In this document: positions 2,880 to 30,661 of the stretch, one piece after another
How positions within the stretch are numbered: position 1 is the first letter of the stretch
Layout of the letters: each line of letters begins with the position of its first letter
Source of the DNA: Pseudoscleropodium purum
Lineage: Eukaryota; Streptophyta; Bryopsida; Hypnales; Brachytheciaceae
Assembly: GCA_963969395.1 (NCBI GenBank)
Contig: OZ017802.1
Location: 374,501-438,500, forward strand
Reading direction: 5' to 3'
DNA: 64,000 bases
Made by a program: the position numbers and the translations under genes
Notes under the pieces: generated by a model
The model's input: only the letters and a program-made list of their open reading frames with translations
The model's database searches: none
Told to the model about the DNA's origin: nothing

Positions 2880-2909
2880 CCACACCTTGGTTTAGGATGC
2901 ATTATCACC

Positions 2910-4315: not shown

Positions 4316-5089
4316 AAGATTGTGGGAGCACAAAAACTCAAACCGAATGAAATTAGTCTAGGATAAGGTTAGATAGACTTGCAATTTTTATTTGTTTTGG
4401 TAACTCATAGAGATTTTTACTACACTGAGACTATGATAGAAATAGTCAGTTTCCGGATTGCTAGAACCGTTAGTAACGTTATGAAAACAAATCTGATACG
4501 GATCTGGGATATAGAAAAGTACCAAATTCTTAAAACCTACATTCTAGAATTCTAGTCTAAGAAACTAGGAGACCATTAGGAGAACAGTCTTTTACCTGTT
4601 CGCCACTGAGAACTATCAGTTGCGCATCAGGTACTTAAGTCCATTGCCACTTTTTTTTTTCTCTCTTTTTGATTGCTGAACGTTGTGAACATATAGCTAA
4701 GGGAAAGATTGGTGAATTAGTGATTGCAATAGAGAGAAGACATAAAGATCAATACCATGCACACCGAATTAGATTATTGACTGTTGATGATTCATGGCAA
4801 TGACTAGCGATCCAGTTGTGCAAAAGTCTGTAGTGGCAATCCGAATGGTTTGTCTGGTTATTCCTTCCGAACCAGCTCACCGAGCACAGTTAGAAGAGGA
4901 CCTCATGTATATCGGATGTATCAAATTGTTAGATAAGTCGTAGAACATGAAAAACAAGGAGATGATCCAAGAACTCATTTATAGAGTTCTGAACTAGTAC
5001 GAGTTGATGGTGAAAAGTCAACTCATAGCTTGAATAGAAGACATCTGAGTGAATGTCTATTCATTTAGAAAGAATAAACTCGGACTAAC

Positions 5090-7123
5090 CGAAAGAACGG
5101 ATAAGTATGTAGTCAAAAAGTTCCGGAGTCAAGCCCACTCAAAGGAGGGTTTTCTATCAATGACTACAAAAACGAGAGGCTTAGACGAGTACTAGACTTC
5201 CTCGTTCCAATCTTCTATCCGGAAAAGCCTATCCGAGTTACAGTCACGGTGGCTAATACCATTTTCGAGCCTTTGGAGGACCGGATTGTCCATTGGGAGA
5301 GAGTGATTTAAAGGATAGTGGACAATTTGGGAGATCACATTGGCCAAGCAAAACATAGCCCTATCACCCCGTATCTGTTTCACCTCTATCATCATAAGGA
5401 GGTCTTAAGTGCCAAGAAAACAATTTAGTACAACACCGGAGTTGAGATCCTAAAGTACGGCCTAACGGATGAGTTAGAAAAAGAAGAGAAAGAATATGAA
5501 GAAGAAGGGCAACTGGAGGAAGAAGAAAAAGCAATGAACCGAAAACAAAGGAAGTCCCTAGATCCGGTTGCACAAAGGAAGTCCCTAGATCCGGTTGCAC
5601 AAAGGAAGTCCCTAGATCCGGTTGCACAAAGGAAGGCACCAACACTGGAAAGGGATAAGTCAATTCCGGACCCGAAACATCCTCAAGACCTAGAGTTCTT
5701 CGAAGCTGGAATCCAGTAGATGCAGCTGGCCAAATAGATGTATGGCGACCTGGAAGATCACGTGCTCCTTATTGCGGGCAAACTCAAGGTGGAATTGGAC
5801 TAGATTTTGGAGGAGATCCGGAAACACCCGAATCTAGAAGAATTCTAATGGAAGAGAGAACAAATTCGAAAGTTAGAAGAGGAAAGGGATAGCCTCAAGT
5901 CCCAACTAGAGTGGACGAAGGGGGAGTTGAATGTAGCGAGATGGAAGGAAATAGAGGCTCTTCAACTCATCAACAACCTCAAGAAACTCATCATGGTTCT
6001 AGAGCATACGGTGATCTGAGCTAGCCTCTACACCACTTGATTGGAGAAGGAAGGGCACATAACCTGATCAAAGATGATAAAAATTCTAGTCGACTTCAAA
6101 GCCTGGATGGGGATTGTTTTGAAGGACATGCACAAGTTGCTGGAATACCTGGATCTGGAACAGACCATCGACTTAGAAGGGTTTCCGGAAGTCCTCAAGA
6201 GCATATTCCGAGATACTCTAATTCAATAGATTTCAATTCAACAAGCTTTGAGTAGTTCGATTCAACCACAATTAGAAAACTGAAGTCTATCCTCACTCCA
6301 ATTGCGGATTCATGAAGCAATCAAGTACGGACTTCAGTAGGACCAGTGGGACCTGAGTCGAGAAAAGCATGGTTGTCATAGTGGACGGACGTCCGGTTCG
6401 TCCATCCGTTAGAGGTCCCGCCCGTCCGATACAGTCAACACATAGTTGACTTTCTGATAACGGAAATATAGGCCACGTGGATGCCATGTGGATTAAAGAA
6501 CATGTTGGGCGTGGATGAGATCGTCAGGGCGTAGACAAGATCGTCCGTGCCCTAGATTTCGCATTTTGAGGTGATGTGTCATTCCGCAAAATTGCACAAG
6601 TTACAAAATTAAAGCCGTTCGGACCGTCCGTCTGTCCCGTTTGATGGCCCTAACTCACCCATTATGACAACCATGGAGAAAAGGAACAAGTGAAAAGCCT
6701 GTTCCAGAGGAAGAAAGGATTTTTGTCTAAATTCTCCCACCACCTAGGAAAATCATGGTCGAAAAGTTCATGATACCCGGATTGGCTGTTTTCAGCAATC
6801 TCGATGCACAGATTGGAGTAATGACAAATCTGGGCCGTTCTCATCCACAAGATTTCTCGCATATGCAGCAATCGACACCGAAGTGGGATCATGTTGGAAT
6901 TGAGCTGAGTGAGCTGCCCCAAGCCAAAAATACGGAGATTCAAGAAATAAAGGAGTCAGAAGAAGAAGCGTTGAAGTCCAGATCTAAGGAAGAAACAGAG
7001 TTTGATTCACCTTTGAAAATTCCACTTAAATTTCAAACTCGATCATCAACAAAGAATACATCAATGAAGGCTTCAGTAAAGACTTCGGGCAGCCAAAGCG
7101 GGAGTAGCACAAAAAAAACATGA
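5090..7123 (+). pseudogene. F2 coiled-coil protein remnant
   Basis: Translated piecewise, this stretch recalls the F1 protein: a block around the motif ANTIF, a PYLFHLY-like block, an acidic Glu/Lys run, then coiled-coil segments and a Ser/Lys-rich end (6755-7123). Many in-frame stops occur, most of them TAG. Comparison with the sister copies shows TGG and CAG codons turned into TAG at different places in different copies, so the gene is dead. The last open segment contains repeated Ser/Thr/Lys residues and ends at a TGA just before the hAT insertion. Confidence 0.6.
5547..5634 (+). repeat. 27-bp tandem repeat, three units
   Basis: Three perfect tandem units of 27 bp, each encoding nine residues (RKSLDPVAQ) in the F2 protein frame, followed by a diverged partial unit. 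Being a multiple of three, the repeat keeps the frame. It lies just after the acidic segment of the F2 coding remnant. The other F2 copies have a single unit in this place, so the expansion is specific to F2-a. Confidence 0.85.
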
Positions 7124-7129
7124 TGAAAT

Positions 7130-7312
7130 CAAGGTTGACACGACGTCCGAACGCGGACGCTGTGTCCGCAGCATCCGCTGACATTCGCGGTCCCCGCGGA
7201 CGCAGCGTCCGCCAGGACCGCCCCGCTCGTCTACCCCGTCCACCCAGTCCACTTTGACGGCCCTATTTCCCTCGACCGCCCTACCCAAACTGCCCCGCGG
7301 TCACTCCCTTAA
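7130..7312 (+). repeat. hAT end A: terminal inverted repeat and GC-rich subterminal island
   Basis: Begins with the terminal repeat and continues with many CGTCCG/CGGACG motifs over about 180 bp. The same island, more or less mutated, is found at 24242-24415 and inverted at 41600-41785, and at one end of all three MITEs. Clustered short motifs next to the ends are typical transposase binding regions in hAT elements; that role is inferred here. Confidence 0.85.
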
Positions 7313-7427
7313 TCTTTAAACAATTTAAAAGATTATAAAGTTTGACCATGAGTCCATGATAGTCTTGAAACTATGAAAAAATTCCAATTCATTTTCAAAA
7401 GGCAAACTAAAAAAATTTGTGACTTCA

Positions 7428-7450
7428 AATATATATATATATATATATAT
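7428..7450. repeat. (AT)n microsatellite in the hAT spacer
   Basis: A run of about eleven AT units downstream of the kinase-like gene. The equivalent site has only about five or six units near 24596-24607 and a much longer run at 41398-41441, so its length differs between the three copies. Confidence 0.8.
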
Positions 7451-7648
7451 ACTATTTAAAAAATCAAGATCAATACAAATACAAACATAATCAATATGGG
7501 CAAAATGTATTCAATTTAATGTAGAATACCATACATTGTGCACATTTGGCTAATTGCACATATAATTTTTTTCATTCCAACTCTATATTTCTAAACTAAT
7601 TTTTAATGCCTATATAACCTATTCAACTACTACTTCTGCACTACCAAT

Positions 7649-9150
7649 CTAATATAAATGGCGGAAATGTTCATCTGGCATCGCCCAATGATATCTATTA
7701 GAAAATCGCGTAATCACATGGGCCAAACTAGTATTTTCATCGTCAGTCTTCGAAGAAATGCACTTCAAGTAAACATAAAACACTTTTGCAAAGTCATGAA
7801 AGGCAAATTGTGTCGCACTAAGTGTTTTAAGTAGCACGTTGAAATACGCCTTTGACATGTTGTTTCCATTCATCCGCTGAGCAATTTTTCGAATGGCATA
7901 TTCTTCCGACTTACGTGAATACATCGGAATGACTTCCACATCTGTACCTGCTTTATGCAAATATGCAATACGTGAATCCACCCACCATCTCCTCTGCAAA
8001 GTTTGTTTCATCTCATCTGCTGATGTAAATGTGTACAAAGACTACATTGGCTGAGAAGCTAAGGTGGTCATGCTCCAATCGCAAACTCCAATGTACACAC
8101 GTGACTCATCCTCTAGAAAATGCAACAAGATGTTGTCCGGAGAAAGATCATTGTGCAAATGTCCAACAAGATGCACTGCATACATTATATGCATAAACGC
8201 CCATGTCAACTCCGTGTCCTTCTTCCGATATCGTCCTAAACGGTGAGCTTTTACAACCTCTTCTTCAGATGGATTTGTATACATCAAACGGATTTGAATG
8301 TTGTCTGGAAAGTCCTTATTCATATTCAACATTTGTCGAAGAGTTCCACCATTCGACCATTCCACCAATACGCATAACCTTCACACGTCGTTCCGTGCAC
8401 CGCAGCAAACCGTATCACACCCGCGTGTGGAATTCGAACAGCCATTGATTCGTTTTGATGTTCTAGCATTGCAAGATCGGGTCGAGTTTGGTGGTGAATG
8501 GATTTCTTTGCCGCAAACTCCCAATGAGGAAGTATTCTTGAACATCCTTCAATACGAACCTTTCGAATCGTTGCATATCCACCTCTCATCGTTCTATCAT
8601 CAACAACAATCACGCGTGTTGTATCTGGAAGTGCTATAAGGTGCCGTTTGGTCCTTTCTGCTTCAGCAACTCCATCATTGCTTTTCCACCAAGCAATTGA
8701 ACCAACTCGATTGTGCTTTTTGGCAAATGGAGCACATCGCCCCCTAAACAAGTCCGCTTTCAGAATCACTTCTTCAAACTAGGCGTCATTGGGTCGATAT
8801 TCCTTGCCATATTTAACCAAAATGACTTTGGAATTCCACAAAGCGTCATGAACCTTATTCTCCAAACATTTGGTGAAGTACGTTTTATGCATTTTGTCAT
8901 GCCACTTCGCCACATTCAATGCATCAAACATCATCTGTGTCATGTCTACCTTGAATTTAGACACGCACTCCTCTTGATATCTGATGTACTTAGTGTCTAA
9001 AGACAATGTTGTTTCCGATTCATAAAATTGAACGATGCGCTCAATCATGAATTTTTTGCATTCCTCCGAAGGACTTTGGCGAGCTACCTCCAAATTTGAT
9101 GGTCTCTCTCCATGTTTTAGCTTCGCAACCTTCTTCTTCCCCTTCGTCAT
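7649..9150 (-). pseudogene. Kinase-like cargo gene, copy 1 (broken)
   Basis: Homologous to the better preserved copy at 24805-26298. Seen here are a basic start, a helical N-terminal third, a glycine-loop-like stretch (GGYATIRKV), a Lys in FAAKKSI, the catalytic-loop form HNDLSPDNILL, and CDWSM where active kinases have DFG and copy 2 has DWG. The gene has a TAG at 8779-8781 (CAG in the other copies), an 8-bp tandem duplication near 8360-8367 that shifts the frame, and the TAG at 8042-8044 shared by all copies. The final stop is TAG at 7649-7651. The start ATG is the one shared by all three copies. A functional product is unlikely from this copy. Confidence 0.8.
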
Positions 9151-9334
9151 CGTGACAAATGAAATTGATATAGATCAAATTTTTTAATTTGAAATTGATT
9201 TCACGCGCAAGTGTCCAAAAAATTAGCAACAAAGAGGCCCCAATAAATCACTCTTGCCTTGCCTCGGAAAGGAGCCAATGGAGGATGAACCACCAAGCTC
9301 TCCGCTCCACCTTGCATTCACAAGGGGCAAAGCA

Positions 9335-9665
9335 AAAGTGACAATGCGGACGGCCCGTCCGCCCAATTGGACGGGCCGGGGGTGACGGACGCATTGGCCA
9401 TCCACCTCCCCGAAACCCTCGAGCCCCATCCGCCCGATCAGACGGCCACGGGCAGACAAATCTGGCGTCCGCTCGATCGGACGGTCTAGGGGGGCAAACG
9501 GGTATTGGGGCGGACGGGTATCGGGGCGGACAAGGCGGACGCCGGATCGGACGGATAGGGCGGACGGAGGACGGGGCGGACAGGTATCGGGCCGGACGGG
9601 GTTTGGGCAGACGAGGCGGACGGGGCGAATAGGGCGGACGGAGGTCTGGGCGGACAGGGCGGTTT
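9335..9665. repeat. Internal GC-rich CGTCCG island
   Basis: Some 330 bp dominated by GGCGGACGG-like motifs between the kinase-like gene and the AT-rich spacer. Composition and motifs match the element ends although this island is internal. The corresponding island in the outer giant hAT is 26490-26895. Open frames across it are Arg/Pro/Gly-rich products of the repeat and not genes. It may be a relic of a former element end. Confidence 0.8.
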
Positions 9666-10013
9666 GACCCTAAAGCGACCCTAAACCCATATTTTGCACA
9701 ATAAATAGAGGTCTTCATGGCACTGTATAGTTCAACTAACTTTTCATTCATTCAATGTAAAATTTGAAATTAAAAAAGGTAGCCTTCCTTTATGACCAAA
9801 TTTATGAATTCTTGGTAAATGATATTTTTGTACAAAGATATGAGCTAAAATGTGCAAAAATTCACGAAAGGATTGCGACGTTTAATATATGTATCCAAAT
9901 ATTCACGTTGCATTGTGTAGAAAGCAATTGTAAGAAGGTAGTTGAATAAAAATTCTACTATTAAATTGAATTAGTTGACGTCTAATCACTTAGTAAACCG
10001 CTAAATGTCCAAG
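9666..10013. other. AT-rich hAT spacer, left part
   Basis: Nearly identical to 26896-27239 in the outer giant hAT. It includes an ATAAATAG motif around 9700 that could be a plus-strand TATA box, but no coding frame follows. The last five bases (CCAAG, 10009-10013) are the left target duplication of the F1-a insertion. Confidence 0.6.
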
Positions 10014-10268
10014 TGTCGCAGCTTAAAATTTTGATTTCCTTAGTATACACCAAAATAGGAACTGAAACTAGTCATTAGGGAACCGGATCCGATAAGGTGG
10101 AGAAGGAAAACTCAAAATTAGCACGGAATGTGAAGTAGTGGGCCTCTTGGATCTAATCCGGTCAGGAGTAACTAACGACGGAAACGGAATGTAACACGGA
10201 TTAGGTCTAGGACCGGATTATGATGATGAACCGGATTTATGATGACAAACCGGAAAGGGTCCAGGGAC

Positions 10269-10276
10269 TATAAAAA
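10269..10276 (+). promoter_or_regulatory. TATA box of the F1 ORF
   Basis: TATAAAAA in the context GGGACTATAAAAAGAGG, about 175 bp upstream of the ORF start. The reverse copy F1-b has TATATAGT at the equivalent place. The surrounding sequence resembles that of the hAT transposase promoter at 15939. Confidence 0.65.
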
Positions 10277-10450
10277 GAGGAGCTTTCACTATTGCACCCC
10301 CTTTTAGAAACTCGACCTTGAGCGTGCGCGGTTGAGTTTTTGGCGTTTGTACGTTTGTGTTCTGTTCGTTTTGATTCCGGTTGAGATCGGAGAGAGAACG
10401 TGAGCAACGGGACATGCGGCTAGGAGAGAGTGAGATAGATTGGAGTGGGA

Positions 10451-12109
10451 ATGCCGCCGCTACGTAGGTCGAGACCAGCGAGTCCCTTTGGAGGCGAGGT
10501 GAAACTCCGGAAAGTCATTCCGGTTATTCCCTCCATAGAGCCGGAAAAGTCTCAACTCATGGAGGATCTCAAATCCATGGGTTGCCTCGGGTTTGCCGAG
10601 AAACCCTGGGGTTTTAGGGAGGAGAGAATGGTCAAGGAGCTCCTCGGAAAGCTGTCCAACCAGTTTGACAACACCATGAGAGGAACTCCCGTCCGCCAGA
10701 ACGAGGGAATGTGGAGAGGGGTTTACGGTTTACGAGCAGGAGGTTTAGGGATGGCGAACCGGAAGGATGAGTTTGTCCGAGAGAAGTTCCAGGGAGCCGT
10801 CAACCTGAAGGACGGATACACGGTCGAGGATTGCGTGGATGACCGACACCGTCGGCTCCTGCAATTCCTGGTTCCGGTTCTTTACTCGGAAAAGCCGACC
10901 AGGGTGACGATCACCCTCGGCAACACCATTTTCGGTGCCCTTAGTGGTACCCGGAAAGTGGACTGGGCACGGATCATTTCCGATCTCGTGGCCCAGCTCG
11001 TTAGTAGGGTTGGAAAGAAAAGGGCCACTCCAGTGTGCCCTTACCTCTTCCACCTCTATCGGGAACACCAAGTCCTCACTGACACGGAGGAGAAGGTGTG
11101 GAAGACTCAGGAAGTCCTCTTGAAGTATGGGGAGTCGGAAACGGATGATGAGGCCGAATCCGATTCCGGGTCAGAATGGGAGTCGAGCGAGGAAGAAGAG
11201 GAGCCGATGCCGCCAATCAAGCGACAGAAGTTGACGCCTCCACACAAGCGCGGGACGCCTCCCGGTCAAGACAGACCGGCCTCGGAAGAGAAACCGGAAG
11301 CCGAGAAGACCGTTTCTGGGGGAGACCCGGATATGCAAGATCCGTTCAACGGTCTGATCAACGTCCTCTGCAACATCAGGGCGGATTGGGAGGTCAAGCA
11401 CAGGACGCTTGCGGCGATCGGAAAGTTGGTAGGTGCGCCACCGGACAACAAGTTGGCAGAACAGGTGGCGGAGTGCATCACCAATCCGGAAGAGAGCTGG
11501 AAGCAGGAAGCAAAGATCCGCCGGTTGCAGGAGGAGGTGGATAACCTGAAGGCAACTCTTTTTGCCTATCAGGAAGACGTGATGGCAGCCCGGGAGATGG
11601 CGGAGGAGACTCGGAAGATAGCCGAGCAGATCAAGGCGGTCCTGGGAGAGACCGGAACGGTCGCCGCCAAAGCGAAGATCTTCAACGAGAAGATCTACGA
11701 AGAGAAGAAACTATCCGGTTCCCGGATGGTCCGGATTCTCGCCGACTTCGCTGAGCAGGTGGAGACGGCAATGGTGGAGGGGCGGAAGGCTGCGGACCGG
11801 ATCGAGGAAAGCAGCCGGAAGCTGACTGGAGCGACGTGCGACAAAGGGATTCATCTTTCGGATATCTCACTACCGGATCTCTTTCCGGACGCGACTATTG
11901 CGAAGGATAGGAAGGATTGGACTCCTGAGTCCAAGAAGTCTGCACGGACTGGGACTCCGGGCACGAGACCGGATATCACAATCGACCTGGAGTCTTCACC
12001 CGGATCTAATCCTGCGGAGGGAGAACGGGTCTGGAATTTGAGTGAAGTCTTCGAGGAGCTAGTCCCGGAGATCGGAAGCCCGACAATAGGATCCAGAGTT
12101 GTAGGGTAG
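10451..12109 (+). CDS. F1 coiled-coil, Gag-like protein of unknown function
   Basis: An uninterrupted 552-residue frame. In order: a basic N-terminus (RRSR), a conserved globular block to about residue 215 containing GNTIFGAL and PYLFHLY, an acidic Ser/Asp/Glu stretch (about 225-250), a nuclear-localisation-like patch (PPIKRQKL, about 253), a long heptad-rich coiled coil (about 320-460), and a Pro/Ser-rich tail ending at TAG. No zinc knuckle, protease, reverse transcriptase or integrase motif is present. The Met at 10451 follows a GTG two codons earlier and is the first ATG after the TATA box. A second copy (766-2424) and distant relatives in F2 show a family that has amplified. A structural Gag-like or regulatory role is inferred. 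Confidence 0.8.
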   Translation: MPPLRRSRPASPFGGEVKLRKVIPVIPSIEPEKSQLMEDLKSMGCLGFAEKPWGFREERMVKELLGKLSNQFDNTMRGTPVRQNEGMWRGVYGLRAGGLGMANRKDEFVREKFQGAVNLKDGYTVEDCVDDRHRRLLQFLVPVLYSEKPTRVTITLGNTIFGALSGTRKVDWARIISDLVAQLVSRVGKKRATPVCPYLFHLYREHQVLTDTEEKVWKTQEVLLKYGESETDDEAESDSGSEWESSEEEEEPMPPIKRQKLTPPHKRGTPPGQDRPASEEKPEAEKTVSGGDPDMQDPFNGLINVLCNIRADWEVKHRTLAAIGKLVGAPPDNKLAEQVAECITNPEESWKQEAKIRRLQEEVDNLKATLFAYQEDVMAAREMAEETRKIAEQIKAVLGETGTVAAKAKIFNEKIYEEKKLSGSRMVRILADFAEQVETAMVEGRKAADRIEESSRKLTGATCDKGIHLSDISLPDLFPDATIAKDRKDWTPESKKSARTGTPGTRPDITIDLESSPGSNPAEGERVWNLSEVFEELVPEIGSPTIGSRVVG

Positions 12110-12248
12110 ATAGGATTTTGGATTTCAGTTAGGAGTAGGAGCGGATCCGGCTCAACAGTATTAGGTTAGCCGGAAGTTAGATTAGGATGGCGGCGGACCC
12201 CTACGGGTTTTCCGCTCCTTTTTGTGCTTTTAGGGTTTTTACCCTTTG

Positions 12249-12257
12249 TATATAAAT
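12249..12257 (+). promoter_or_regulatory. Second TATA box in F1, downstream of the ORF
   Basis: TATATAAAT about 140 bp after the ORF stop, followed by a pyrimidine-rich leader and more than 1 kb of non-coding sequence to the TG...CA end. F1-b keeps the same motif on the minus strand (near 606-618). If F1 is a long LTR, this would be the promoter that starts the genomic RNA, with the ORF lying in U3. That is an inference. Confidence 0.5.
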
Positions 12258-13279
12258 CGGTTCCTGAGATGGGAATTGGGAGTTTTTCATTTTGCAAACC
12301 TCTTGTACCTTTCTCTTCTCCTCATTGTGTGTCTCTCTCCAGCGCGACAGGATTGTATGATGTGGAGTTAGGATAGTACGAGCCGGTTTGCAAATGATTT
12401 CTCCCCTTGGTGTTTCTTTTCCGATCCAAGGTGCATGTGAGTAGGTATCGAAGAGTTGGGAGTGAACTTAGTTCCTCAGCACGTCTAGAATTTGAGATTC
12501 CGGATGAGAAAGCCGTTGTTAGGCTAGGTGGGTAGGGAGGGATTCCTTAGCTGCGCTAGAACTCCCGGGTGGGAAATCCGATCGAGTGTCCGATCTCCTG
12601 TGAGGTCTCACCACCCGTAGGGGTAACGGAAGAACTTTAGTTGATGTTGGAACGGACGGGTGCACTTGTAACCACCTATCTTCGCACGGATCGGAAGTAG
12701 CATCAAGGTCGTTGTAGTACGAGAGGGTCGAGTGTGGGGTCTTTGTGTGACCTACAACCCGGATTGCTATCTGGGTTATTGTGAAGGACCAAACCGGATC
12801 CGGATTAGCTTAGGAGTTTAGGAAGTAGGACAGTGGGTCTTCAGCCATTATAAGTCACGGAAGGAGTGGTGGGCCTACCACTCTCAAATGTAAGCGGCGA
12901 CCCCTCTGATGGTGAAACAGAGGCAAAACTAAACCGGATAGGATTACGGATACAGGATGACCATCCGGACCGGATTGGTTAGGACGGATTTCCAGGATCG
13001 GAAGTTGTGAGATCCTGGAATTTGGGTATTTGTATGGACCGGATAGTAAGTAGGACCGAAAGAAGGAGTAATCCGGTCTGTAGTTATCCGGTGTGGTGGT
13101 ATTTCTGGTTCTAGATCTAGGACCGGAAAGTAAGATTGGGATACTGACTTAGCTTAACTGTTTAATAGAGCTAGATACTTCACAGGATCTCGTGGGTTCG
13201 ATCTTTAGAGTCACTTAGTTATACTCTAGAGCGATTTTTGTGAGTATAATGGGGAATTGACCTGCCCTGTGCTGCGACA

Positions 13280-15645
13280 CCAAGTCCTTGCAAGTGTGTT
13301 TTGGCTATCGAAAAAGAGCATGGACTTATAGTTATCCCCAATGAAGCAAATTGTTCTTTTTTCAAAATCTCATGGTATAGATGTTTAACCCCTAAAGTTC
13401 TTTTCACTAAAAACACTTCAAAACTGCCAGTAGTAGTGCAAATATCAAGTCTTAGAAGAAAAATACTTTGGGGCATATGTAACCGTAGGATCTTGTAGTA
13501 AATTAGTTGGAAAAAATCTGGAAAAAGTTTTAGACAAATCCACCATTTGGATTGTAAGATATTAGATATTGAGTGTTTCATTTAAGGGGGCTACTCAATT
13601 ATGTCTATTAATGAACAATTGGTAGGCTAACAAACCTAACTTAGCATGTATTTTAATATTTGTTGCAATTGTTTTAGGAATATTATAACATAATACTATT
13701 ATAATATTCTTATAAATGATATAGTACTAAATCATTTCAAATCAACAACATTTGAACACAATCTGTCAATCTTGTCTTCCATACTCCTTTAATGATATAT
13801 ATATATATATACATATATAAAATATATTAGATAAATCAACATGAACAAATCAATGATTATATATTTCATAGATCTATTCTTCATCAATCAAATAAGAGTG
13901 CATGTACAAATATAGACAAAGATGGTTTCTCCATTTGTTTCCAAAAATTAAATAAACAAATAGAGAAAGATATGAAGTGAATGTTACTTGGAGAATTGAA
14001 GGGAAAGAAATTGAAGTACTCAATTGCATTTTATTAAATTGGAAAATTGCATGTCGATGGCATGAATTAATCTTCATAGATGCTAAACTCATACGAGTTG
14101 CATTTCAACATTTATGATTTATGCAATTGATTGAATTGAAAGCTCTTGTAATTACATTTTCAAATTTTCGATTCAATCATTCAAATTTGCAAGAGTGATT
14201 TATGATAAATATATAACTTTAAATGTGAAAGCATTCAATGCCTTTATGCGTTTGTTCATCAATATATTAATTTTAAATCAATAATATATATTTTTTATAA
14301 TAGATGCATAAACCATTGCATTAAAAAAACAAAAACTAAGAGCCAAGCCAAATAGGCTGGTCAAATGAAGAGAACAAGAGAACAAGAGCCCTACAAGAAA
14401 GCAAAGGAAAAAAGAAAATATCAAAAGGATTCAAAGGAAGGAGCAAGATGCATTTTTGCAAGACCGTAGAATGCATAATGTGATAATGATTTCAATATCC
14501 AAACACAAATATATTTTCTATTTCAATGAGAGCCAAAAATGAACTCCCCTGCTCTCAAAGATTGTACAATGTATACGTTATACAAAACGAACATATAACA
14601 AAAAGAGTAGAAGACATCGTTTATCATGATTGAAAACTGAAATGATTTTTTTTTTTCTATGTAGAATATTTTATGAAATGTAACAATGTATTTAATTATC
14701 ATAGTAATTGGTAGAAATCTTTGTGCAATACGTAGAAACATTTCATTCATGTGGAATTTTTTCATTTATTTAGGATTAAAATTGAAGTATTATACTCTAC
14801 AAAGTACAAACCGAAAACAATATCATATACCTAAGTTCAAAAGTTTGCAATTGTTTCGTGAATTCATTTTGAAAACTCAAACAAAGAAATATTTTATAAT
14901 CAATATCTTGTTCATTTCAATCATTTCAAAATTCGAATTCCGAATTCAATTCCTATTTATAATAGAAATTATGTTTGTCAATTTTTTAGATCTTTAATAT
15001 TTAAAAACATCTGAAATAAGAATATAGGAATTACCCTTCAAAATAAATATAGCACATGTATAAGTGTATAATGTATTCTACTCCACCAACTCAAGTAACG
15101 AATTTTTCTATGTTTTTAAGGAAAAATATAGCCATATATGATTTGAAAGTTAAAACATTGATTCTTTTTCTTTGTTTTCAAATCTAATCAAAATTTCATT
15201 AAAAAATATGAAAGACTCGATGTTCATTTGAAGATCGTGATGCACTTCTAATTAGAAAACACAACCTTTCATTAAATATCATGAGGTTGAAATCCATTAA
15301 ACTGTTATTTTAATTATGTATTGGGGCCTTTTTTTAAATTTTCATTTGCTTATGATGAAAAAGGAATTGATTATTTTTTGCAAAACATTTGATTTCCTAA
15401 TGAACTTTAAAAAAATCCTCACCATCTTCAGATCTTCTCAAAACCTATTTAGAAGGATAATATGAGTAAATAATCCAAACATATTTAACTTAACCACATT
15501 CCCCTCATTCGTAAAACAATTTAGGGGAGAAAAGAAAAGGTTTAGGGTAATTAGGGTATAGGGTTTACATTTTTTTTTAAAATAAAATGATAAATCAATT
15601 ACATTGATCCTCATTTAGCAGTGATTATTAGGCTGTTTGTTTTTT
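13280..15645. other. AT-rich hAT spacer, copy A (no gene)
   Basis: Non-coding segment found three times: here, at 27235-29572 (copy B) and inverted at about 33930-36236 (copy C). A and C are nearly identical, while B differs by small indels and substitutions. Its first 280 bp match a dispersed repeat also present at about 51990-52195, 50690-50905 and around the CACTA insertion at 58349. It contains an (AT)n run near 13796-13820 and degenerate TTTAGGG-like motifs near 15538-15570. I see no coding frame with codon-like conservation. The first five bases are the right target duplication of F1-a. Confidence 0.7.
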
Positions 15646-15699
15646 TAAATGTTACCGCTTTTTTTGAGTAATATCGACCTCTTAGGATGCTCCAATGGA

Positions 15700-15880
15700 C
15701 AGCTGGGTGGACGCTGTCGGCGGTCAGTGTTTAAGTGGGGCGGTCGGCATGTTCAAAGCGCGGACGGCGTCGGAAGGCGGACAATACGGACAGTCCCGTC
15801 CGACCACCCTGTCCGCCACGTCCGACCGCCCGTCCGACCCGTCTGGCCTGTCCGCCCGTCCGCTTCAGCCCCGTCCGGGC
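15700..15880. repeat. Internal GC-rich CGTCCG island upstream of the transposase
   Basis: About 180 bp of CGTCCG/CGGACG motifs directly before the transposase promoter; the inverted copy is at 33692-33872. Same composition as the element ends. It could hold transposase-binding sites that act on the promoter, or be a relic of an ancestral end. Confidence 0.75.
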
Positions 15881-15938
15881 CGTTTCTTGTTTTTGAATGG
15901 AAACCCTAAAAATGAACCTTTAATTTTCTGGAGGGGAC

Positions 15939-15945
15939 TATAAAT
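15939..15945 (+). promoter_or_regulatory. TATA box of the hAT transposase gene
   Basis: TATAAAT in the context GGGGACTATAAATG, between the GC island and the first coding ATG at 16193. The spacing leaves a leader of roughly 220 bp. It is identical in the inverted copy (33627-33633). Confidence 0.6.
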
Positions 15946-16192
15946 GTTAGAAGAGAAGCTTTGGTATTCACTCTCGAAAAACCGAACACTAAGATTTCCA
16001 AGGGCTATGAGCTTCAATTTATTGAGTCTCTTGTTTGGTAATGCATAGTTCGGTGGACGGGGGGGCTTTGATTTTCAAAGCTTTGTGTGACTAATTTCAT
16101 TGATATTGTATACATTGTCACGTTGTGGGTTTCAAATTGAAAACATTCTATTGGTTTCTTTTGAAATTGAGGTAAAACATACACTTGTCAGT

Positions 16193-18910
16193 ATGGTGGC
16201 CAAACCGACGGGGGATTTTTCTCCTTGGTTTAGTGTGCAAGAGGGTGGTAAAGTAAAATGTAGGCTTTGCAAAGCGAGCATGTCAAGGAAGCTCAACCGT
16301 ATCTTCAGCCATTTAGGCTATTCTAGGCCTAAAGGTGTACGTGATAAAGGGGTGAGCCTTTGTCCACGATTACCAATGGCAGTTCGAGATTTATTTCAGC
16401 ATTGCGAAGGAGTTTTTCCAAAACGCGTTGTAATGGACAATGTGGATGGCAACCCTAGCCCTTTAGATGTCCAAGAGTTTTCGGCCGGAAAGGCTGTGTC
16501 GCATTCTGACCACGAAGACTCTTGTCCAGCATCCAAAGAATTGGTATCAATGGTATGTGTCACAACTGAAATGACTTTGAGTACGGAAGCTTCTGGTGAT
16601 TGTGAAACCCCGAGGGCATCAAGTTCTAGGCCTCAGAGGCAAGGAAGCTTAGTGAATGGGTTTGAAGAAGGTCATAGACGCAAATTACATTCAGTGTAGG
16701 CAAATTTTTTTTATTCGGCGAACATACCATTTTCCGTGGCTCGAAATTTAGCTTTTAAAGAAGCAGTGAAGAAAACGGCTGCGTTTGGTAGGCCATACAT
16801 TCCTCCCTCATACCATGACCTTCGGTACAAATTGTTGAATGAGGCGAAGACCAACATTCAGACACAGTTGAATGCACGGACTGAAGATAGCATTCGAAAA
16901 TTTGGAGCAACATTGTCCATTGATGGATGGAGCTCCGTGACTAATCGACCTCTCATCAATGCCATGCTTGTATCATCCGCAGGTGAAGAATTTCTTGGAT
17001 CTGTGGATACAAGTGGTTGTGAAAAAAATGCGAAGTACTTGGCAGTTGTGTTGGAAAAGTTCATTGAACAAGTGGGGTCCAAGAACGTCGTGTTAATAAC
17101 TACGGATAATGCTCCCGTGAATCCGTCCGCATGGGATGTAATATCTGTAAAATATCCTCATATTTTTTACCAAGGGTGCGTGGTACATGCATTGAATTTG
17201 TTGTTGAAGGATTGGGCTGCACAAAAATGGATTGCTTTCAAATTGGATAAAGGAGTTGTTGTAGCTAAATTTATCAGGAAGAGACATATGCCGCTAGCTC
17301 TATTGCGAAAGTATTCGCCAAATCTTGGTCTCTTGATGCCTGGGGATACAAGGTTCGCCTCTAAATTTATCATGATGGAACGTTTGACAAAATTGAGAGG
17401 AGCATTGGAACAAACGGTGGTAGATCCGCAATGGGTTGAATATGTACATACTCTCAAGAAGAAACGTAGAGCTAAAGTCCAACCAAAAGACTTGGCCTTA
17501 GCGGTGAAGAAAATTGTTCTTGATGACCATTTTTGGAATCGGTCCATCAATTATGTGGAGATGGTTGAACCAATCATATGTGCACTCCGCGATTTGGATT
17601 CAAAATCACCATGCATGGGGAAGGTGTTGCATATCATGAGGAAGTTAGAGAAGCACGTGAACGGATTACAAAGTCCACCATTTTGTTTGCTAGAAGAACT
17701 TGCAATTCCATTGGTACAGTCTTTTTATGCCCGAAGAAGAATGGTGGACAATGATCTCCAATCAGCCGCAGCTCTTTTGAATCCATACCTTCTTCATGAC
17801 AAAGAGCTAGCGGATGACGCAGATGCAATGTCAGGATGTAAGAAAGTTTTGGAGAGAATATGTAAACCGGATGAATATGCAACAGTGGTGAAGGAATTTG
17901 TAGCTTTTCGACACAAGGAACCTCCATTCCACAATATGTTGAATCCGGGAGATCAAATGTTGTCCGCACATGCTTGGTGGGATTTTGAAGGTGCATGTGG
18001 CAAGTTTATAGCTCCATTAGCGAAGAGGATATTGGCTCAACCGGTGTCATCATCTTCATGTGAACGAAATTGGAGCAACTATTCTTTTGTTCACAACAAA
18101 TCTCGAAATAAATTGAAGCCGGAGAGAGCAGCGGATTTGATGTACGTGTATACCAATTCCAAAGTATTAAACGCATCGAAGGAAAAAGATGAAAAAAAAT
18201 GGTATAATGATAATGTGGATCCGATGGAATCAGAGGATTTAGATAGGCCGACGTTAGAAGACGATGATGACGAGGATTTGGAAAGGGCCCTTTCAGCTGT
18301 AGATGGCGGAGATGACTTCAATCGTGCAACAGCATGGGGAGATGAAGACGTTATGCAAGACTTTCCCGATTTGGTGAATGATACGCATGATTATCATCTA
18401 AACCGCAAGGATGTCGTTCCCGACAATGCAAACGATGCATATACCTTTTGTGAAGACAAGGACAATGTAGGGGGAGAGGAGAATCTACCTTCTTTAGCTG
18501 CATATTGCAATAGAACGGGATACTTGAATAGCGAAAACATTCTATCGGAAAAGGCAAACGCTATTGCCAAAGAGGTGAAAATCAATGAGAATGCTATTGG
18601 TGATGAGGGGAGAAATGAAGATGTTCTAATTTCTCAATCTCCATCTGTGGCATTAAATGTAGTGCAAGGAAACGACAAAAGAGAAGATGCGGTCATGGAG
18701 GTGGACGTTCCAAAAGATGTGGGCAATAATAGTGGTGATGAGGGGGAATCAAATATTGCGGTACAAAAAAATAATGATTCACTTGGGATGGCAGTCACAA
18801 ATTCGGCAATTGTGAAGAGTGATAAAAGAAAGGAGCCAATGAAGTCAATTTTTGAAGTACCAAGATCTAGTGCTCTTCCACCAATACCGTTGAAGTCTGT
18901 TAGCACATGA
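16193..18910 (+). CDS. hAT transposase (BED finger, DUF659, hAT_C) with an in-frame TAG, copy 1
   Basis: Cuts and pastes hAT elements in the nucleus. Residues 1-168 hold a BED-type zinc finger (VKCRLCK, then FSHLGY) and a polar linker. After the TAG (codon 169, 16697-16699) the same frame continues for 737 codons. It starts with the usual ANFFYSANIPF block, then a DUF659 region (SIDGWSS, TTDNAPVN), and closes with the hAT dimerisation domain (SSSCERNWS, then KLKPERAADL). An acidic C-terminal tail of about 240 residues follows. Homology is continuous across the TAG, where relatives have a Trp, Ile or similar residue, so an intron is unlikely. The start is the ATG before the BED finger. The second copy (30662-33379) encodes the same protein with the same TAG. 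Full-length activity would need readthrough or editing. Confidence 0.85.
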
Positions 18911-19039
18911 TTGAATGATTCTCAGAGCTTTGGGTATGGAAAACGCCTAATGAACATTTAAAAAAAAATTTCTACAGGCGGTAATCTACGGAAAGTAGCG
19001 TCATCACCTACAAGCCTAAGTGATACGGATAGTGATCGG

Positions 19040-19549
19040 ATGCCATTGACATCTTTGCGTGCTCGCATTTTAGCAAAAGGAATGGCGCAAGAACCGATCA
19101 AATCAACAAACGGCACTCTATTACTTCAAAAGAAAGTCAAAGTGGAGATAACCGTTCATGGACATGTCGACCCTACATCGAGATTGATGGTTCAAGAATC
19201 GAGTAACGTGAAAGCAAAAAGAGAAAGGCAACCTTTTGCTATCTCTCCAGTGAAGAATAGGACCCCTCTTGATGAAAATGTTGCTACTTTGTCAAATAGA
19301 AAGAAAAAAAAGGTTCCTATTCAAAAAGCCTTTAATTGTTCTGTCAAAGTAAAAAAAGAAAAATTAAATTCGAAAGAAGGGAGTAAACCTACTTCGAGAG
19401 AAGACTTGAAGGAGACAACGATACTTGATTCCAACAATGAAGATGACTCCGACAATGAAGATGACTCCGATAATGAAGATTTTGAACGGAGAGCTGTAGG
19501 AGAGAGTAGTGGGGCTGAGGTTAGAGGAGATGTGGATTGGCGTCCATAG
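19040..19549 (+). CDS. Small basic/acidic protein or 3' exon downstream of the transposase
   Basis: A 169-codon frame, in phase with the transposase but separated from it by a TGA and a TAA. It starts with a basic segment, carries Lys-rich patches (RKKKKVP, KVKKEKL) and ends with Asp/Asn/Glu repeats from an 18-bp tandem unit (near 19441-19480). A possible 3' splice site (TTTCTACAG) precedes it near 18977, so it may be the last exon of the transposase gene. I could not find a convincing donor. An identical copy is on the minus strand at 30023-30532. Function unknown. Confidence 0.5.
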   Translation: MPLTSLRARILAKGMAQEPIKSTNGTLLLQKKVKVEITVHGHVDPTSRLMVQESSNVKAKRERQPFAISPVKNRTPLDENVATLSNRKKKKVPIQKAFNCSVKVKKEKLNSKEGSKPTSREDLKETTILDSNNEDDSDNEDDSDNEDFERRAVGESSGAEVRGDVDWRP

Positions 19550-19899
19550 GAATTGTGGAGATGTGAATTTAAATGTTTGATTGTTTAGTTGCTTATGATA
19601 TATGGAGCTCATGTTGACAAATGACAATGGTTTCTTCAATCATTTTATTATAAAATTGTTTGTTTATTGATGATATACATCTCGCTAGATTTTAAAGTGA
19701 TTTTGTTTCTAAATCAAAATGAAATTCAACAAAAAAAATTAAAAATATATTTCATATTTTAGCTTTTACATAAATAGTGATATACAACTCTATTGAATCG
19801 CAATTGCAATATAAGAAAAATCCAAATCCAAATGACTTCACTCTCAATCTCTCATTGGTGAAAACAATCAAAACAAAAAACCCAAAACGGGTTTTCTAA

Positions 19900-20038
19900 G
19901 CCGCCCCGCCCGGCCGCCCGGCCCCGCGCGTCCGCCTTCCGACGGCGGGAAGGATGTTGCGTCCGCTAGCGTCCGTGCCTCCGGACGTCCAGAAAACGGA
20001 TGCTATTTTGGGGCGGACGTAGAGATTCGTCAATCCTG
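19900..20038 (+). repeat. hAT end B: GC-rich subterminal region and terminal inverted repeat
   Basis: Ends with the mutated terminal repeat GTCAATCCTG. Inside it are the family's end-B signatures CGGAAGG and GGGGCGGACGT, seen again at 29573-29672 (inverted), 43735-43930 and in the MITEs. Followed by the GATGAAAT duplication. Confidence 0.85.
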
Positions 20039-21480
20039 GATGAAATAGATAGATACCTAGTAGGCAATTAGGTAGGACTTTCATTCTGGAACGGAATTTC
20101 CAAGCATGGGTTTGGGTTTTGGATTTTCAAGGATCCAGATTTGTAGGGACAATTGGATTGTAAACTTTTCGGACATCCCGAGGCATTTATTGGTTCAGGG
20201 TTGACAAATCAGTACGTCCATCCCAAAATAGCGTCCATAACCCGGACGTCCGTCCTCACGGACGCCAGCGAACACAGCGTCTTTCTCGTCGTCGAAAGGC
20301 GAACGGGCGGGGCGGACGGGTGGGGCGGACGAGCGGGGCGGACAGGGCGGACAAGCAGACGGAGGGACGGGGGAACAGATGGATGGGGTGGTCCCGACGG
20401 ACGCTGCATCCGCCAGAACCGCGAATGTCAGCGGACGCTGCGGACACAGCGTTCGCGTCCGAATGTCTCGGACGTCCATCCGTCCTGTCAACCCTGGATT
20501 GGTTGGTTACCTTGATTTTCGGGGTACCTTTTTGGCCTTTTAGGCATTGACTTTGGTTTTGGTTTTGGTTTTTAAAGGTCAACAAGTTTGTTGCCCTCTC
20601 ATTCCATCCTCATGATTAATCCATTGTATTTCATTTCCTTCTATAATCTGAGCCACCTGATGGACATTCTGGCTTCGACTTTTGTCTAGGTCGTGTTGGT
20701 TTATTACTTGGAGTGTTGAGAGGTGAGAAGGACGGGTGAGGAGGAATCCAGATTTTAGATAATTTGATCAGACTGAGGAAGTGCTATTGTAATGATGTTA
20801 GATTTGCAACAAAGGAACTACACGTGGTGCCTTTGAACTATTAGAATGATAATCTGGTTATAGTGAAGAGTGGTGTGAGTGCAAATTTGGAATTGGAAAC
20901 GATTCCATGCAAAGATTAGCGACTGTCAACGGAAACTTCCACTCATCGGAAAGTCTACCAACCTTAGGATCTGTCTTACACGTAGAAAGATTATCCCCTT
21001 GTTAGTTTATGATGCCTGAGATCTGTCATTGTAGTAAAGAAGAGTGAACGCAGTCCTGAGTAACCTGCATTCCAAATTGGCCATCTAAAACATTGTGAGG
21101 ATCCAGATCCACTTTTCGTGCTGCAACACCTTGATTACTGGGGTGTTTGTTGGTTTTTAATTGTGTAGTAAGTAGACTAGAGTGGTGAAGTCTCTACTCC
21201 TCGAAAGTTCAATAGTAGACCCTTTGATAGTAAAAGAGGAATTGAAAACCAATGTACTAGGAAATGTAACTAGAAATCAGGTAAAGTCGGATCTGGATTG
21301 GAATTCGAATAGTAGTAGGTTCTGGGAAAAGAATGGAAGAGAGTAGTTGGAAGAGGAGAAAAAGATCATCTAGATACTAAAGTTTGGAAGAACATCTGGA
21401 ATTCTCTAGGACAATAATTTGTGTCATCTTATAATGTTTTTGTGTATAAAGATACTTACGCCTAAATTGCACATACGACA
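20039..21480 (+). mobile_element. F2-a, 3' portion
   Basis: Continuation of the element begun at 4321, resuming at the duplicated GATGAAAT and ending with CACATACGACA at 21480. A 301-bp MITE sits inside it. This non-coding part resembles 22265-23540, 47600-49442 and, inverted, 43931-45100. It includes the conserved CTGCAACACC motif near 21120 and a TATAAAG motif near the 3' end. The right flank TAGAT differs by one base from the left flank AAGAT. Confidence 0.75.
20196..20496 (-). mobile_element. hAT MITE 1
   Basis: 301 bp with perfect ends CAGGGTTGAC and GTCAACCCTG and an 8-bp duplication with one mismatch (TATTGGTT/GATTGGTT). End B is on the left and end A on the right, so it lies inverted relative to the giant copy 1. 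It has the two ends of the giant elements and nothing between them, and must be mobilised in trans. The long frames crossing it are Pro/Arg-rich repeat products and not genes. Confidence 0.9.
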
Positions 21481-22264
21481 TAGATTTCTAAAAAGGGGCC
21501 CTAAATTCTTGCTCCACACTCAAATTCCACACTCTATGCTTCCCACTCCAACTTTATGCTCGTATATTAGCTTTGTTGGTTATGAACATTTGGACTTTTT
21601 CATTTCATTGAAAACATTAAAAGAAAATATATGAAGATGTCATCAATTAAACATTTCTTTAAATTCAGACATAAATGTATCAACTCAAAACTAATCTTCA
21701 AGATATTCGTACACAAATATTTGCACTAAAAAGGTTTCAATCAAAAGAATTCCAAAACAAATACATTGAATGATAAATACAAAGAAGCAAGTATTTTAAA
21801 AATACTATTAGTAAAAACCAACATCTATTACATAATTATACAATTATAGTAAATTCAACACTATTGGAACCTACGGAAACAGACTTTAGTTATTTCAAAT
21901 AAAATTTGAAGTAAGAAATCCATTCTCAATATATTTTTTTGATTCTACCAATTAGAAATAAATATAGGATCTCTTAATTGAGATAAAGTAGTTAAGGAAG
22001 ACATTCACACTTTTCGTCCTAACCAGAATCCAGAACCCAGATAATTATACAATAAGTATTTTCAAAGACTTTTGGCAATATCACAACTGGATCCAGAATA
22101 TTTCCGGAAATGTGTAGGATCTGGAATCCGGAAATGTTTCGAATCCGGATTGGATTTGGAATGGAATCCGGAATGGGTCCGGAATGGATCCGGAATTTAG
22201 AAATGTTCAGATTCCAGAATCCAGAAAATGATCCAAGAGAGAAGATTTAGACCTGTGTAGCAAC
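21481..22264. other. AT-rich interval with a short TCCGGAATGG-like repeat tract
   Basis: No credible gene. Around 22085-22215 there is a cluster of imperfect TCCGGAAT/GGAATGGA units, probably a decayed minisatellite. The rest shows no pairing ends that I can recognise. Confidence 0.5.
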
Positions 22265-24241: not shown

Positions 24242-24415
24242 CAGAGTTGACATGACGTCCGGACACGTTCGCTGACATTCGCGGTCCCCACGAACGTAGC
24301 ATCCGCCGGACCACCCCGTCTGCCCTGTCCGCCCCATCCGCCCCGCCCGTCCGCCCAGACGGCCCTATTTCCTCCGACCGCCCTGGCTACCCAAACTGCC
24401 CCGCGGTCACTCCCT
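24242..24415 (+). repeat. End A of the outer hAT
   Basis: Diverged copy of 7130-7312, with the terminal repeat, the internal motif GACATTCGCGGTCCCC and a cluster of CCGCCC/CGTCCG motifs. It has more C-to-T changes than end A of copy 1. Confidence 0.8.
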
Positions 24416-24804
24416 TAATCTTTAAACAATTAAATGTTAAATGAAGTGCAATGGTTCGCGATTTGTCATTAAAACAATGTCTCTTATAAGTTGAAAGATT
24501 ATAAAGTTTGACCATGAGTCCATGATAGTCTTGAAACTATAAAAAAATTCCAATTCATTTTCAGAAGGCAAACTAAAAAAATTTGTGACTTCAAATATAT
24601 ATATATACTATTTAAAAAATCGAGATCAACACAAATACAAACATAATCAATATGGGCAAAATGTATTCAATTTAATGTAGAATACCATACATTGTGCACA
24701 TTTGGCTAATTGCACATATAATTTTTTTCATTCCAACTCTATATTTCTAAACTAATTTTTAATGCCTATATAACCTATTCAACTACTACTTCTGCACTAC
24801 CAAT

Positions 24805-26298
24805 CTAATATAAATGGCGGAAATGTTCATCTGGCATCGCCCAATGATATCTATTAGAAAATCACGTAATCACATGGGCCAAACTAGTATTTTCATCGTC
24901 AGTCTTCGAAGAAATGCGCTTCAGGTAAGCATAAAACACTTTTGCAAAATCATGAAAGGCAAATTGTGTTGCACTAAGTGTTTTAAGTAGCACGTTGAAA
25001 TACGCCTTTGACATGTTGTTTCCATTCATCCGCCGAGCAATTTCTTGAATGGCATACTCTTGCGACTTACGTGAATACATCGGAATGACTTCCACATCTG
25101 CACCTGCTTTATGCAAATATGCAATACGTGAATCCACCCACCATCTCCTCTGCAAAGTTTGTTTCATCTCATCTGCTAATGTGAATGTGTACAAAGACTA
25201 CATTGGCTGAGAAGCTAAGGTGGTCATGCCCCAATCGCAAACCCCAATATACACACCTGACTCATCCTTTAAAAAATGTAACAAGATGTTGTCCGGAGAA
25301 AGATCATTGTGCAAATGTCCAACAAGATGCACTACATACATTATATGCATAAATGCCCATGTCAACTTCGTACGCTTCTTCCGATATCGCCCTAAATGGT
25401 GAGCTTTTACAACCTCCTCTTCGGTTGGATTTGTATACAACAAACGGATTTGAATGTTGTCTGGAAAGTCCTTATCCATATTCAACATTTGTCGAAGAGT
25501 TCCACCATTCGACCAATACGCATAACCTTCACACGTCGTTCCGTGTACTGCAGCAAATCGTATCACACCAGCGTGTGGAATTCGAATAGCCATTGATTCG
25601 TTTTGATGTTCTAACTTTGCAAGATCGGGTCGAGTTTGGTGGTGAATGGATTTCGTTGCCACAAACTCCCAATGAGGAAGTATTCCTGGACATCCTTCAA
25701 TATAAACCTTTCGAATCGTTGCATACTCACCTCTCATCGTTCTATCATCAACAGCAATCACGCGAGCTGTATCTGGAAGTGCTATGAGGTGCCGTTTGGT
25801 CCTTTCTGCTTCAGCAACTCCATCATTGCTTTTCCACCAACCGATTGAACCAACTCGATTGTACTTTTTGGCAAATGGAGCACATCGCCCCCTAAACAAG
25901 TCCGCTTTCAGAATCACTTCTTCAAACTGGGCATCACTGGGTCGATATTCCTTGCCATATTTAACCAAAATGACTTTGGAATTCCACAAAGCGTCATGAA
26001 CCTTGTTCTCCAAACATTTGGTGAAGTACGTTTTATGCATTTTGTCATGCCACTTCGCCACATTCAATGCATCAAACAACATCTGTGTCATGTCTACCTT
26101 GAATTTAGACACGCACTCCTCTTGATATCTGATGTACTTATTGTTTAAAGACAATGTTGTTTCCGATTCATAAAATTGAACGATGCGCTCAATCATGAAT
26201 TTTTTGCATTCCTCCGAAGGACTTTGGCGAGCTACCTCCAAATTTGATGGTCTCTCTCCATATTTTAGCTTCGCAACCTTCTTCTTCCCCTTCGTCAT
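24805..26298 (-). CDS. Kinase-like cargo protein, best preserved copy (in-frame TAG)
   Basis: The first frame runs 366 codons from the ATG at 26298. Residues 1-180 are a Lys-rich start and a helical region of unknown family. A kinase-like fold follows: glycine-loop-like GEYATIRKV (190-198), Lys216 in VATKSI, a candidate helix-C Glu230, catalytic loop HNDLSPDNILL (330-340, Asp332, Asn337) and DWG (Asp355) for DFG. The residues needed for catalysis are present, so activity is possible. The frame stops at TAG 25198-25200 just where the activation segment should continue. It goes on in phase for 110 codons (RRWWVDSRIAYLH and further helices) to a TGA at 24862-24864 that replaces an Arg codon of the other copies, and homology ends at 24805. 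It is transcribed away from the transposase. Substrate unknown. Confidence 0.75.
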
Positions 26299-26489
26299 CG
26301 TGACAAATGAAATTGATATAGATCAAATTTTTTAATTTGAAATTGAATTCACGCGCAAGTGTCCAAAAAATTAGCAACAAAGAGGCCCCAATAAATCACT
26401 CTTGCCTTGCCTCGGAAAGGAGCCAATGGAGGATGAACCACCAAGCTCTCCGCTCCACCTTGCATTCACAAGGGGCAAAGCAAAAGTGA

Positions 26490-26895
26490 CAATGCGGACG
26501 GCCCGTCCGCCCCTCTTATAAGGGCGGACGACCCTAAACCGTCCGCCCAATTGGACGGGCCGGGGGTGACGGACGCATCGGCCGTCCACCTCCCCGAAAC
26601 CCTCGAGCCCCGTCCGCCCGATCGGACGGCCACGGGCAGACAAATCTGGCGTCCGCTCGATCGGACGGTCCAGGGGGGCAAACGGGTATTGGGGCGGACG
26701 GGGCAGACAGGGCGGATGGGTATCGGGGCGGACGGGGCGGACAGGGCGGACGGGTATCAGGGCGGACAAGGCGGACGCCGGATCGGACGGACAGGTATCG
26801 GGCCGGACGGGGTTTGGGCAAACGAGGCGGACGGGGCGAATAAGGCGGACGGAGTCTAGGCGGACGGAGGTCTGGGCGGACAGGGTGGTTTGACC
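26490..26895. repeat. Internal GC-rich island in the outer hAT
   Basis: About 400 bp of GGGGCGGACGGG-type repeats, longer than its counterpart at 9335-9665 by several units. It separates the 5' side of the kinase-like gene from spacer B. Proline- and arginine-rich open frames here are by-products of the repeat. Confidence 0.8.
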
Positions 26896-30532: not shown

Positions 30533-30661
30533 CCGATCACTATCCGTATCACTTAGGCTTGTAGGTGATGACGCTACTTTCCGTAGATTACCGCCTGTAG
30601 AAATTTTTTTTTAAATGTTCATTAGGCGTTTTCCATACCCAAAGCTCTGAGAATCATTCAA

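Follow-up and report, generated by a model that had tools for sequence, protein, structure and literature searches.

A kinase-like gene as a stable component of two types of large hAT elements in the moss Pseudoscleropodium purum

A window of 64,000 nucleotides from Pseudoscleropodium purum (contig OZ017802.1, positions 374,501 to 438,500) contains, at window positions 7130–20038, a giant hAT transposon (copy 1) that carries a kinase-like gene next to one of its ends, end A, in addition to a transposase gene. Copy 1 represents a hAT family in which most of the transposase copies checked bear the kinase gene beside end A; the kinase is predicted to be active and is likely a helper for expression or mobility of the element. 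We assign this reading a probability of about 0.6. Judged from sequence, the kinase gene is also part of a second, transposase-less type of element, which has identical ends and carries two further genes, named M and RING here.

Copy 1 opens with CAAGGTTGAC and closes with GTCAATCCTG, terminal inverted repeats that differ by two mismatches. It is flanked by a perfect 8-bp target-site duplication, GATGAAAT, at 7122–7129 and 20039–20046, which occurs nowhere else on the plus strand of the window. End A (7130–7207, plus strand) contains a cluster of GTCCG/CGGAC motifs starting at 7145, and another such cluster lies in end B (19930–20038, plus strand). The kinase gene (7649–9150) is on the minus strand, opposite to the transposase gene, and is broken by an in-frame TAG and a frameshift near 8356–8359. 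The transposase gene (16193–19549, plus strand) has 1118 codons plus a stop and occupies a single frame with in-frame stops. Two more GTCCG/CGGAC clusters, made of tandem units, are located upstream of the kinase gene (9347–9651) and of the transposase gene (15761–15873). The element is interrupted by an insertion, F1 (10014–13279; 3,266 bp), with 9-bp inverted ends TGTCGCAGC/GCTGCGACA and a 5-bp duplication, CCAAG; it encodes a 556-aa frame for which a Pfam scan gave no match at E 0.1. Without F1 and one CCAAG, copy 1 measures ~9.6 kb, and complete elements elsewhere that lack M are 9.5–9.7 kb long. The initial annotation, made from the letters of the window, had described the ends, the 8-bp duplication, the opposite orientation of the kinase-like gene and the 9.6-kb length without F1, and all of these were recovered. 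Its "complete BED/DUF659/hAT_C transposase" is complete in extent and does contain DUF659 and hAT_C, but is not complete in coding state because of the in-frame stops.

Elements of the hAT superfamily (Ac, Hermes, Tam3) are recognized by 8-bp target duplications, short inverted ends and a DUF659/hAT_C transposase. By sequence, the moss element has each of these features, as well as the conserved D, D, E and W residues. DUF659 (E = 3.2e-32) and Dimer_Tnp_hAT (E = 2.1e-9) were located by Pfam within 16703–18910; a BED finger in the copy 1 transposase gave a weak match (E 0.08), under the Pfam cut-off. When a profile of 25 transposase sequences was compared with the PDB, four distinct chains were matched (best E 2.8e-11), two of them named Hermes transposase and two named transposase. 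Residues D74 (23/25), D135 (24/25) and E454 (24/25), which we take from the hAT literature to be catalytic, and W278 (25/25), presumably the conserved hAT tryptophan, are well preserved. That the gene forms a single frame is seen from five relatives (908 to 1,123 residues), which align with it unbroken, and from a majority-base row over 13 transposase copies, which is stop-free. The frame is broken in the five complete elements compared, which were picked for their kinase, and open frames occur among the other scored copies. Named relatives of the transposase come from seed plants and from one bacterial metagenome bin.

The genome (313 Mb in 52 contigs) was searched with the kinase gene, which gave 1,430 first-look candidates; 110 were scored, each at least 90% identical to the query. 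Among the 30 best-scoring loci, end A lies 451–878 bp beyond the kinase stop codon in 27, and the 8-base flanks are all different; in three loci (L014, L026, L037) end A was not found within 900 bp of the stop. Surroundings were fetched for eight copies, six chosen for an open kinase frame (one of these also for a RING neighbour) and two as an inverted pair. Seven of the eight proved to be complete elements with both ends, CAGGGTTGAC / GTCAACCCTG, and an 8-bp duplication, perfect in six and matching at 7/8 positions in one. Five measure 9,496–9,739 bp, one 9.74 kb and one 11,651 bp. The eighth copy, a partner in the inverted pair, has end A and is cut by the neighbouring element. A DNA search with the 12-base end was uninformative (47 and 54 matches versus 43 and 46 for the reversed control).

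The association also holds from the side of the transposase. A search with the transposase gene gave 1,171 candidates, of which 61 were scored, and their coordinates were matched to those of 196 distinct kinase copies pooled from two genome searches and scattered on 11 contigs. A kinase lies within 15 kb on the end-A side of 31 of the 61 transposases, always on the opposite strand and in 27 cases at a distance of 4.16–5.28 kb; the three instances of a kinase on the other side are due to adjacent copies, both in the window and in the inverted pair. Probing of 20 of the 39 unlinked transposase copies outside the window revealed a kinase at the expected place in 15 and slightly displaced in two; two had the M gene there, where reading stopped, and one (L069) had nothing recognisable. 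Altogether, a kinase was shown on the end-A side of 46 of the 61 scored transposase copies, two window copies included, and no kinase-less transposase copy was demonstrated among the 61, 12 of which were outside the probing. The view that the kinase-like gene is a stable component rather than an accidental capture had been proposed together with two checks, its position beside end A in other genomic copies and a dN/dS ratio (omega) below 1 between copies. Both checks agree with it (27 of 30 kinase loci and 46 of 61 transposase copies for the former, shared variants for the latter, as described below), and the opposing case, an element with the same ends and a transposase but no kinase, was not found within the limits just given.

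Fifty-six relatives of the kinase were found, and 30 were aligned, down to 27% identity. Six residues, G192, K217, E236, D334, N339 and D357, are invariant in 30/30 homologues, with the motifs spelled HND (HxD) and DWG (DFG-type). We assign to them the roles of the glycine loop, the lysine, the helix-C glutamate, HxD…N and the DFG-type aspartate. A structural model of the protein adopts the kinase fold, and the fold lists cover model residues 164–489. Pfam Pkinase was under the cut-off in five of six homologues and over it in P0055, while PK_Tyr_Ser-Thr was just over the cut-off in P0024 and P0055. From the residues and the model, the kinase family is predicted to be active. Its organism-named relatives come only from the moss Ceratodon purpureus (P0024, P0034) and one bacterial bin. 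P0021, a relative of the kinase, and P0070, a relative of the transposase, both list a longest contig of 27,639 bases, which suggests that the two genes are linked in another genome. Two relatives named Bacilli bacterium, both from bacterial metagenome bins, were observed: P0002 for the kinase (76% identity) and P0118 for the transposase (39% identity). They are likely plant contamination of bacterial bins.

To follow selection on the kinase gene, a context-matched omega test was applied to 28 of the 30 loci (L018 and L025 were dropped for length changes). Variants private to one copy gave an omega of 0.96, whereas shared variants gave 0.64, 0.49 and 0.40 with rising sharing. Private variants thus look neutral and shared ones constrained, and the kinase appears to be kept by natural selection. 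Plain Nei-Gojobori ratios (0.41 for intact copies in frame, 0.56 and 0.68 in the shifted frames) were set aside in favour of this test because they ignore the mutation spectrum. For the transposase, the test covered 13 copies and was noisy: over the whole gene, private variants gave 1.03 and variants shared by at least two copies 0.75 (p 0.038), and in the catalytic part variants shared by at least two copies gave 0.64 (p 0.045). As a separate observation, stops in kinase copies L009–L038 are mostly explained by C-to-T (or G-to-A) changes in CGA, CAA, CAG or TGG codons, a pattern expected for methylated, silenced copies.

The second type of element is represented by locus L013+L074 at C40:23.87M, a complete 11.65-kb element with a perfect duplication, TATAAAAC. 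It contains an open kinase gene, an M gene with stops and a RING gene whose frame stays open for 1,075 codons; element comparison showed no stretch similar to the transposase. Genome searches with RING (query frame 41667–43115; 2,841 candidates, 89 scored) and M (1,205 candidates, 131 scored) revealed a recurrent arrangement. Since each gene was listed only by its best-scoring copies, the counts that follow are minimum values. At least 19 of 89 RING genes have a listed kinase upstream (17 on the opposite strand; two cases on the other side). At least 29 of 131 M genes have one downstream, all on the same strand and 28 at 1.1–2.1 kb (other side, two), and for at least 39 of 131 a RING gene is listed upstream, on the opposite strand in 38 and at 5.1–5.5 kb in 34 (other side, one). 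In two cases, one of them copy 3 of the window, a listed transposase occupies the place of RING. The M and RING proteins have an N-terminal domain in common (39% identity over 83 residues, pairwise E 5e-14), and Gly, Ser and Tyr abound in the remainder of M, a low-complexity protein. Kinase, M and RING genes all have open frames in many scored copies. The idea that every element contains a RING gene was rejected for the scored copies: among the 61 transposases, a scored RING gene was present within 15 kb of one only, the nested case in the window.

The GTCCG/CGGAC motif occurs 39–50 times per element in the five compared, versus ~8 expected from base composition, and is almost wholly confined to four clusters, two of which lie in ends A and B and two upstream of the kinase and transposase genes, respectively. 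The M/RING element L013+L074 has five clusters: each of its three genes is preceded by one, and each end contains one. The inner clusters of the window are tandem arrays. The second element type, the motif cluster preceding each gene and the broken kinase in the window copies all go beyond what had been annotated initially.

A role of the kinase as a helper for expression or mobility is the most likely explanation. The transposase from kinase- and transposase-bearing elements would cut both element types, as inferred from their common ends. The kinase would phosphorylate the transposase, chromatin or a silencing protein and thereby keep the element expressed, and one element protein would bind all GTCCG clusters, joining recognition of the ends to control of the element genes. 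Selection would act on kinase copies of the lineage that is still moving, and inserted copies would decay freely. Several points weigh against this reading. Not one of the three large window copies has an intact kinase gene, nor do 19 of the 30 best-scoring loci. The 30 loci were the best by protein similarity, a choice that favours conserved copies, although the neutral value of private variants argues that the bias is small; all frequencies refer to the best-scoring 61 to 150 copies per genome search. Fifteen of the 61 transposase copies are without a settled kinase (12 unprobed, the two with M and L069). Transposase variants shared by at least three copies gave an omega of 1.38 (p 0.84) over the whole gene, from few sites and in a noisy test.

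The broken kinases are also what one would expect if the gene had been captured once, before the family spread, and rode along without function for the element, and pieces of captured genes are common in plant transposons. Yet shared kinase variants are constrained and private ones are not, the catalytic residues are invariant down to 27% identity, a motif cluster precedes the kinase gene as it does the other genes of the element, and it is retained in two element types whose genes otherwise differ; a passive passenger is therefore improbable. Alternatively, the kinase could target the transposase or its complex directly, through activation, nuclear entry or a self-limiting control of overdose, and be unrelated to silencing. 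In favour of this, the gene accompanies the transposase at a fairly fixed distance and in opposite orientation, and transposases of other elements are known to be controlled by phosphorylation. Such a kinase would need to serve in trans in the transposase-less elements that retain it, and we regard this alternative as possible, if on the unlikely side.

A kinase that serves the plant, as domesticated or beneficial cargo with the element as a mere vehicle, would fit the open frames of ~500 residues that are frequent among the best-scored copies and the Ceratodon relative P0034, which represents 126 member sequences. However, 196 copies scattered on 11 contigs, with neutral private changes, are what a mobile lineage, rather than host genes, should show, which makes this very improbable. 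We give still less credit to the notion that kinase, M and RING form an independent mobile unit repeatedly inserted into hAT elements: the kinase does occur with two different partners, but distances and orientations are near constant, and the kinase side meets the spacer at one place in the M-less elements e1–e5 and in window copies 1 and 2. The helper reading can be extended, tentatively and with a good deal of doubt, to a two-partner system in which transposase-bearing and transposase-less elements share the kinase. Kinase, the low-complexity M protein and RING, as a protein resembling ubiquitin ligases, would then make up a signalling kit against host silencing at GTCCG-marked genes, and the transposase-less type would be a helper that pays its way.

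To our knowledge, second genes of DNA transposons with a tested role are few. Compared with typical hAT elements, those described here are large (9.5–11.7 kb in eight complete elements, F1 excluded), have a kinase gene with at least 46 of 61 scored transposase copies and include a transposase-less type with three genes. That type resembles Ds and miniature inverted-repeat transposable elements (MITEs) in having its ends in common with autonomous elements and differs from them in retaining three long protein genes. VANDAL elements are Mutator-like, whereas the transposase here is hAT. According to the part of the report consulted, the VANC protein of VANDALs binds noncoding motif arrays and lowers their methylation (PMC5735166). 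The moss elements are similar to that system, as so described, in encoding a protein other than the transposase and in having a short motif as tandem repeats in noncoding parts; a Pfam scan of the kinase, M and RING proteins gave no match to a VANC-like domain. By analogy, we propose that the element may operate in a manner loosely similar to VANC, although it does not belong to that system.

In fungi, hAT7 transposons bearing a TET/JBP gene and IS3EU transposons bearing an alpha-kinase gene are described in the excerpted text of a report; IS3EU families with a TET/JBP gene also bear the alpha-kinase gene, opposite to the transposase, and have a 6-bp duplication and ends TAYGG..CCRTA (PMC12730594). 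Like these, the moss element is a DNA transposon with a second enzyme gene. Unlike it, they are, as far as the excerpts go, fungal, belong to another superfamily or have 7-bp duplications, and carry an alpha-kinase or a dioxygenase, whereas the moss element is a plant hAT with 8-bp duplications and a protein kinase of the common fold. Measured against the IS3EU features in those excerpts, its duplication is 8 bp long, its ends are different and no alpha-kinase is found among the Pfam matches of the kinase. The main text of a 2026 review on gene capture by plant transposons contains neither the word hAT nor the word kinase (PMC13317346). No hAT element with a kinase gene was encountered in the literature searched by titles and openings of abstracts, a search that leaves most subscription journals, and probably Repbase reports, outside. 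Transposons with other helper genes are already known, one of them with a kinase; what is new here is a kinase, apparently under selection, in two types of hAT element. A kinase constrained while the element moves and neutral after landing would, if true, show clearly how selection acts at the level of the transposon. With two element types sharing one kinase, the persistence of transposase-less elements with open genes becomes testable, and one can ask whether the element turns phosphorylation and ubiquitin signalling against silencing.

The window contains two further large copies. Copy 2 (24242–43930, plus strand; duplication CTCAAAAT/CTCAAAAC, 7/8) is of the kinase and RING type without M. 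Its kinase gene (24805–26298, minus strand) is full length, with two in-frame stops and the conserved lysine replaced by threonine; the 3′ part of its RING-finger gene is at 41786–43115 (plus strand), the open frame 41667–43115 starting within end A of copy 3. Copy 3 (29573–41785, minus strand) is inverted within copy 2, has no matching 8-bp duplication and carries kinase, M and transposase genes. Its transposase gene (30022–33378, minus strand) belongs to a segment of 6.6 kb with 99.9% identity to copy 1. The M frame (37024–37929, plus strand) encodes the N-terminal domain in common with the RING protein, followed by the Gly/Ser/Tyr-rich part, and the broken kinase gene (39395–41200, plus strand) is interrupted by a 296-bp miniature element. 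With kinase and transposase in copy 1, the three copies have three different gene sets, and the modules therefore recombine. The initial statement that the same kinase sits beside end A in all three large copies stands, but the three are not alike: copies 2 and 3 are nested, copy 2 has RING in the transposase place, and copy 3 has an additional gene and no matching target duplication. An ordinary insertion of copy 3 into copy 2 was rejected, as the flanks CATTTAGC and GTTAAAAG differ; by comparison with L013+L074, ~2.3 kb of copy 2 is absent at the junction, and an insertion with deletion is the best reading. As a side observation, elements of the family terminate inside the RING gene of another member both at L010 and in window copy 3 (at 41785), and a further element doing so at L044/L045 is a likely third case.

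Eleven kinase pairs less than 60 kb apart were noted in the genome, nine of them inverted and several with identical scores. In L044/L045, the one inverted pair read, 2.2 kb is 99.9% identical, the remainder is 92–98% identical and the flanks differ. For this pair, a two-kinase element or an assembly fold-back was rejected on the partial identity and the different flanks, and local gene conversion is more likely. Window copies 1 and 3 are 99.9% identical over 6.6 kb, and their kinase sides are 95–97% alike; in both pairs, patches of gene conversion between inverted neighbours are likely.

The only copies seen without the kinase are three gene-less miniature elements of the window. These are the 296-bp element in the kinase gene of copy 3 (40633–40928; same ends, perfect duplication ATTCACGT), a 301-bp element (20196–20496; same ends, duplication TATTGGTT/GATTGGTT, 7/8) and a 243-bp element (46301–46543; similar ends, perfect duplication GATATGGC). 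A second copy of F1 is located at the left edge of the window (1–2880; 92% identity over 2.9 kb). Between the elements, repeats of ~76–79% identity are found at 43968–49264, 20498–21486 and 4327–6365 of the window.

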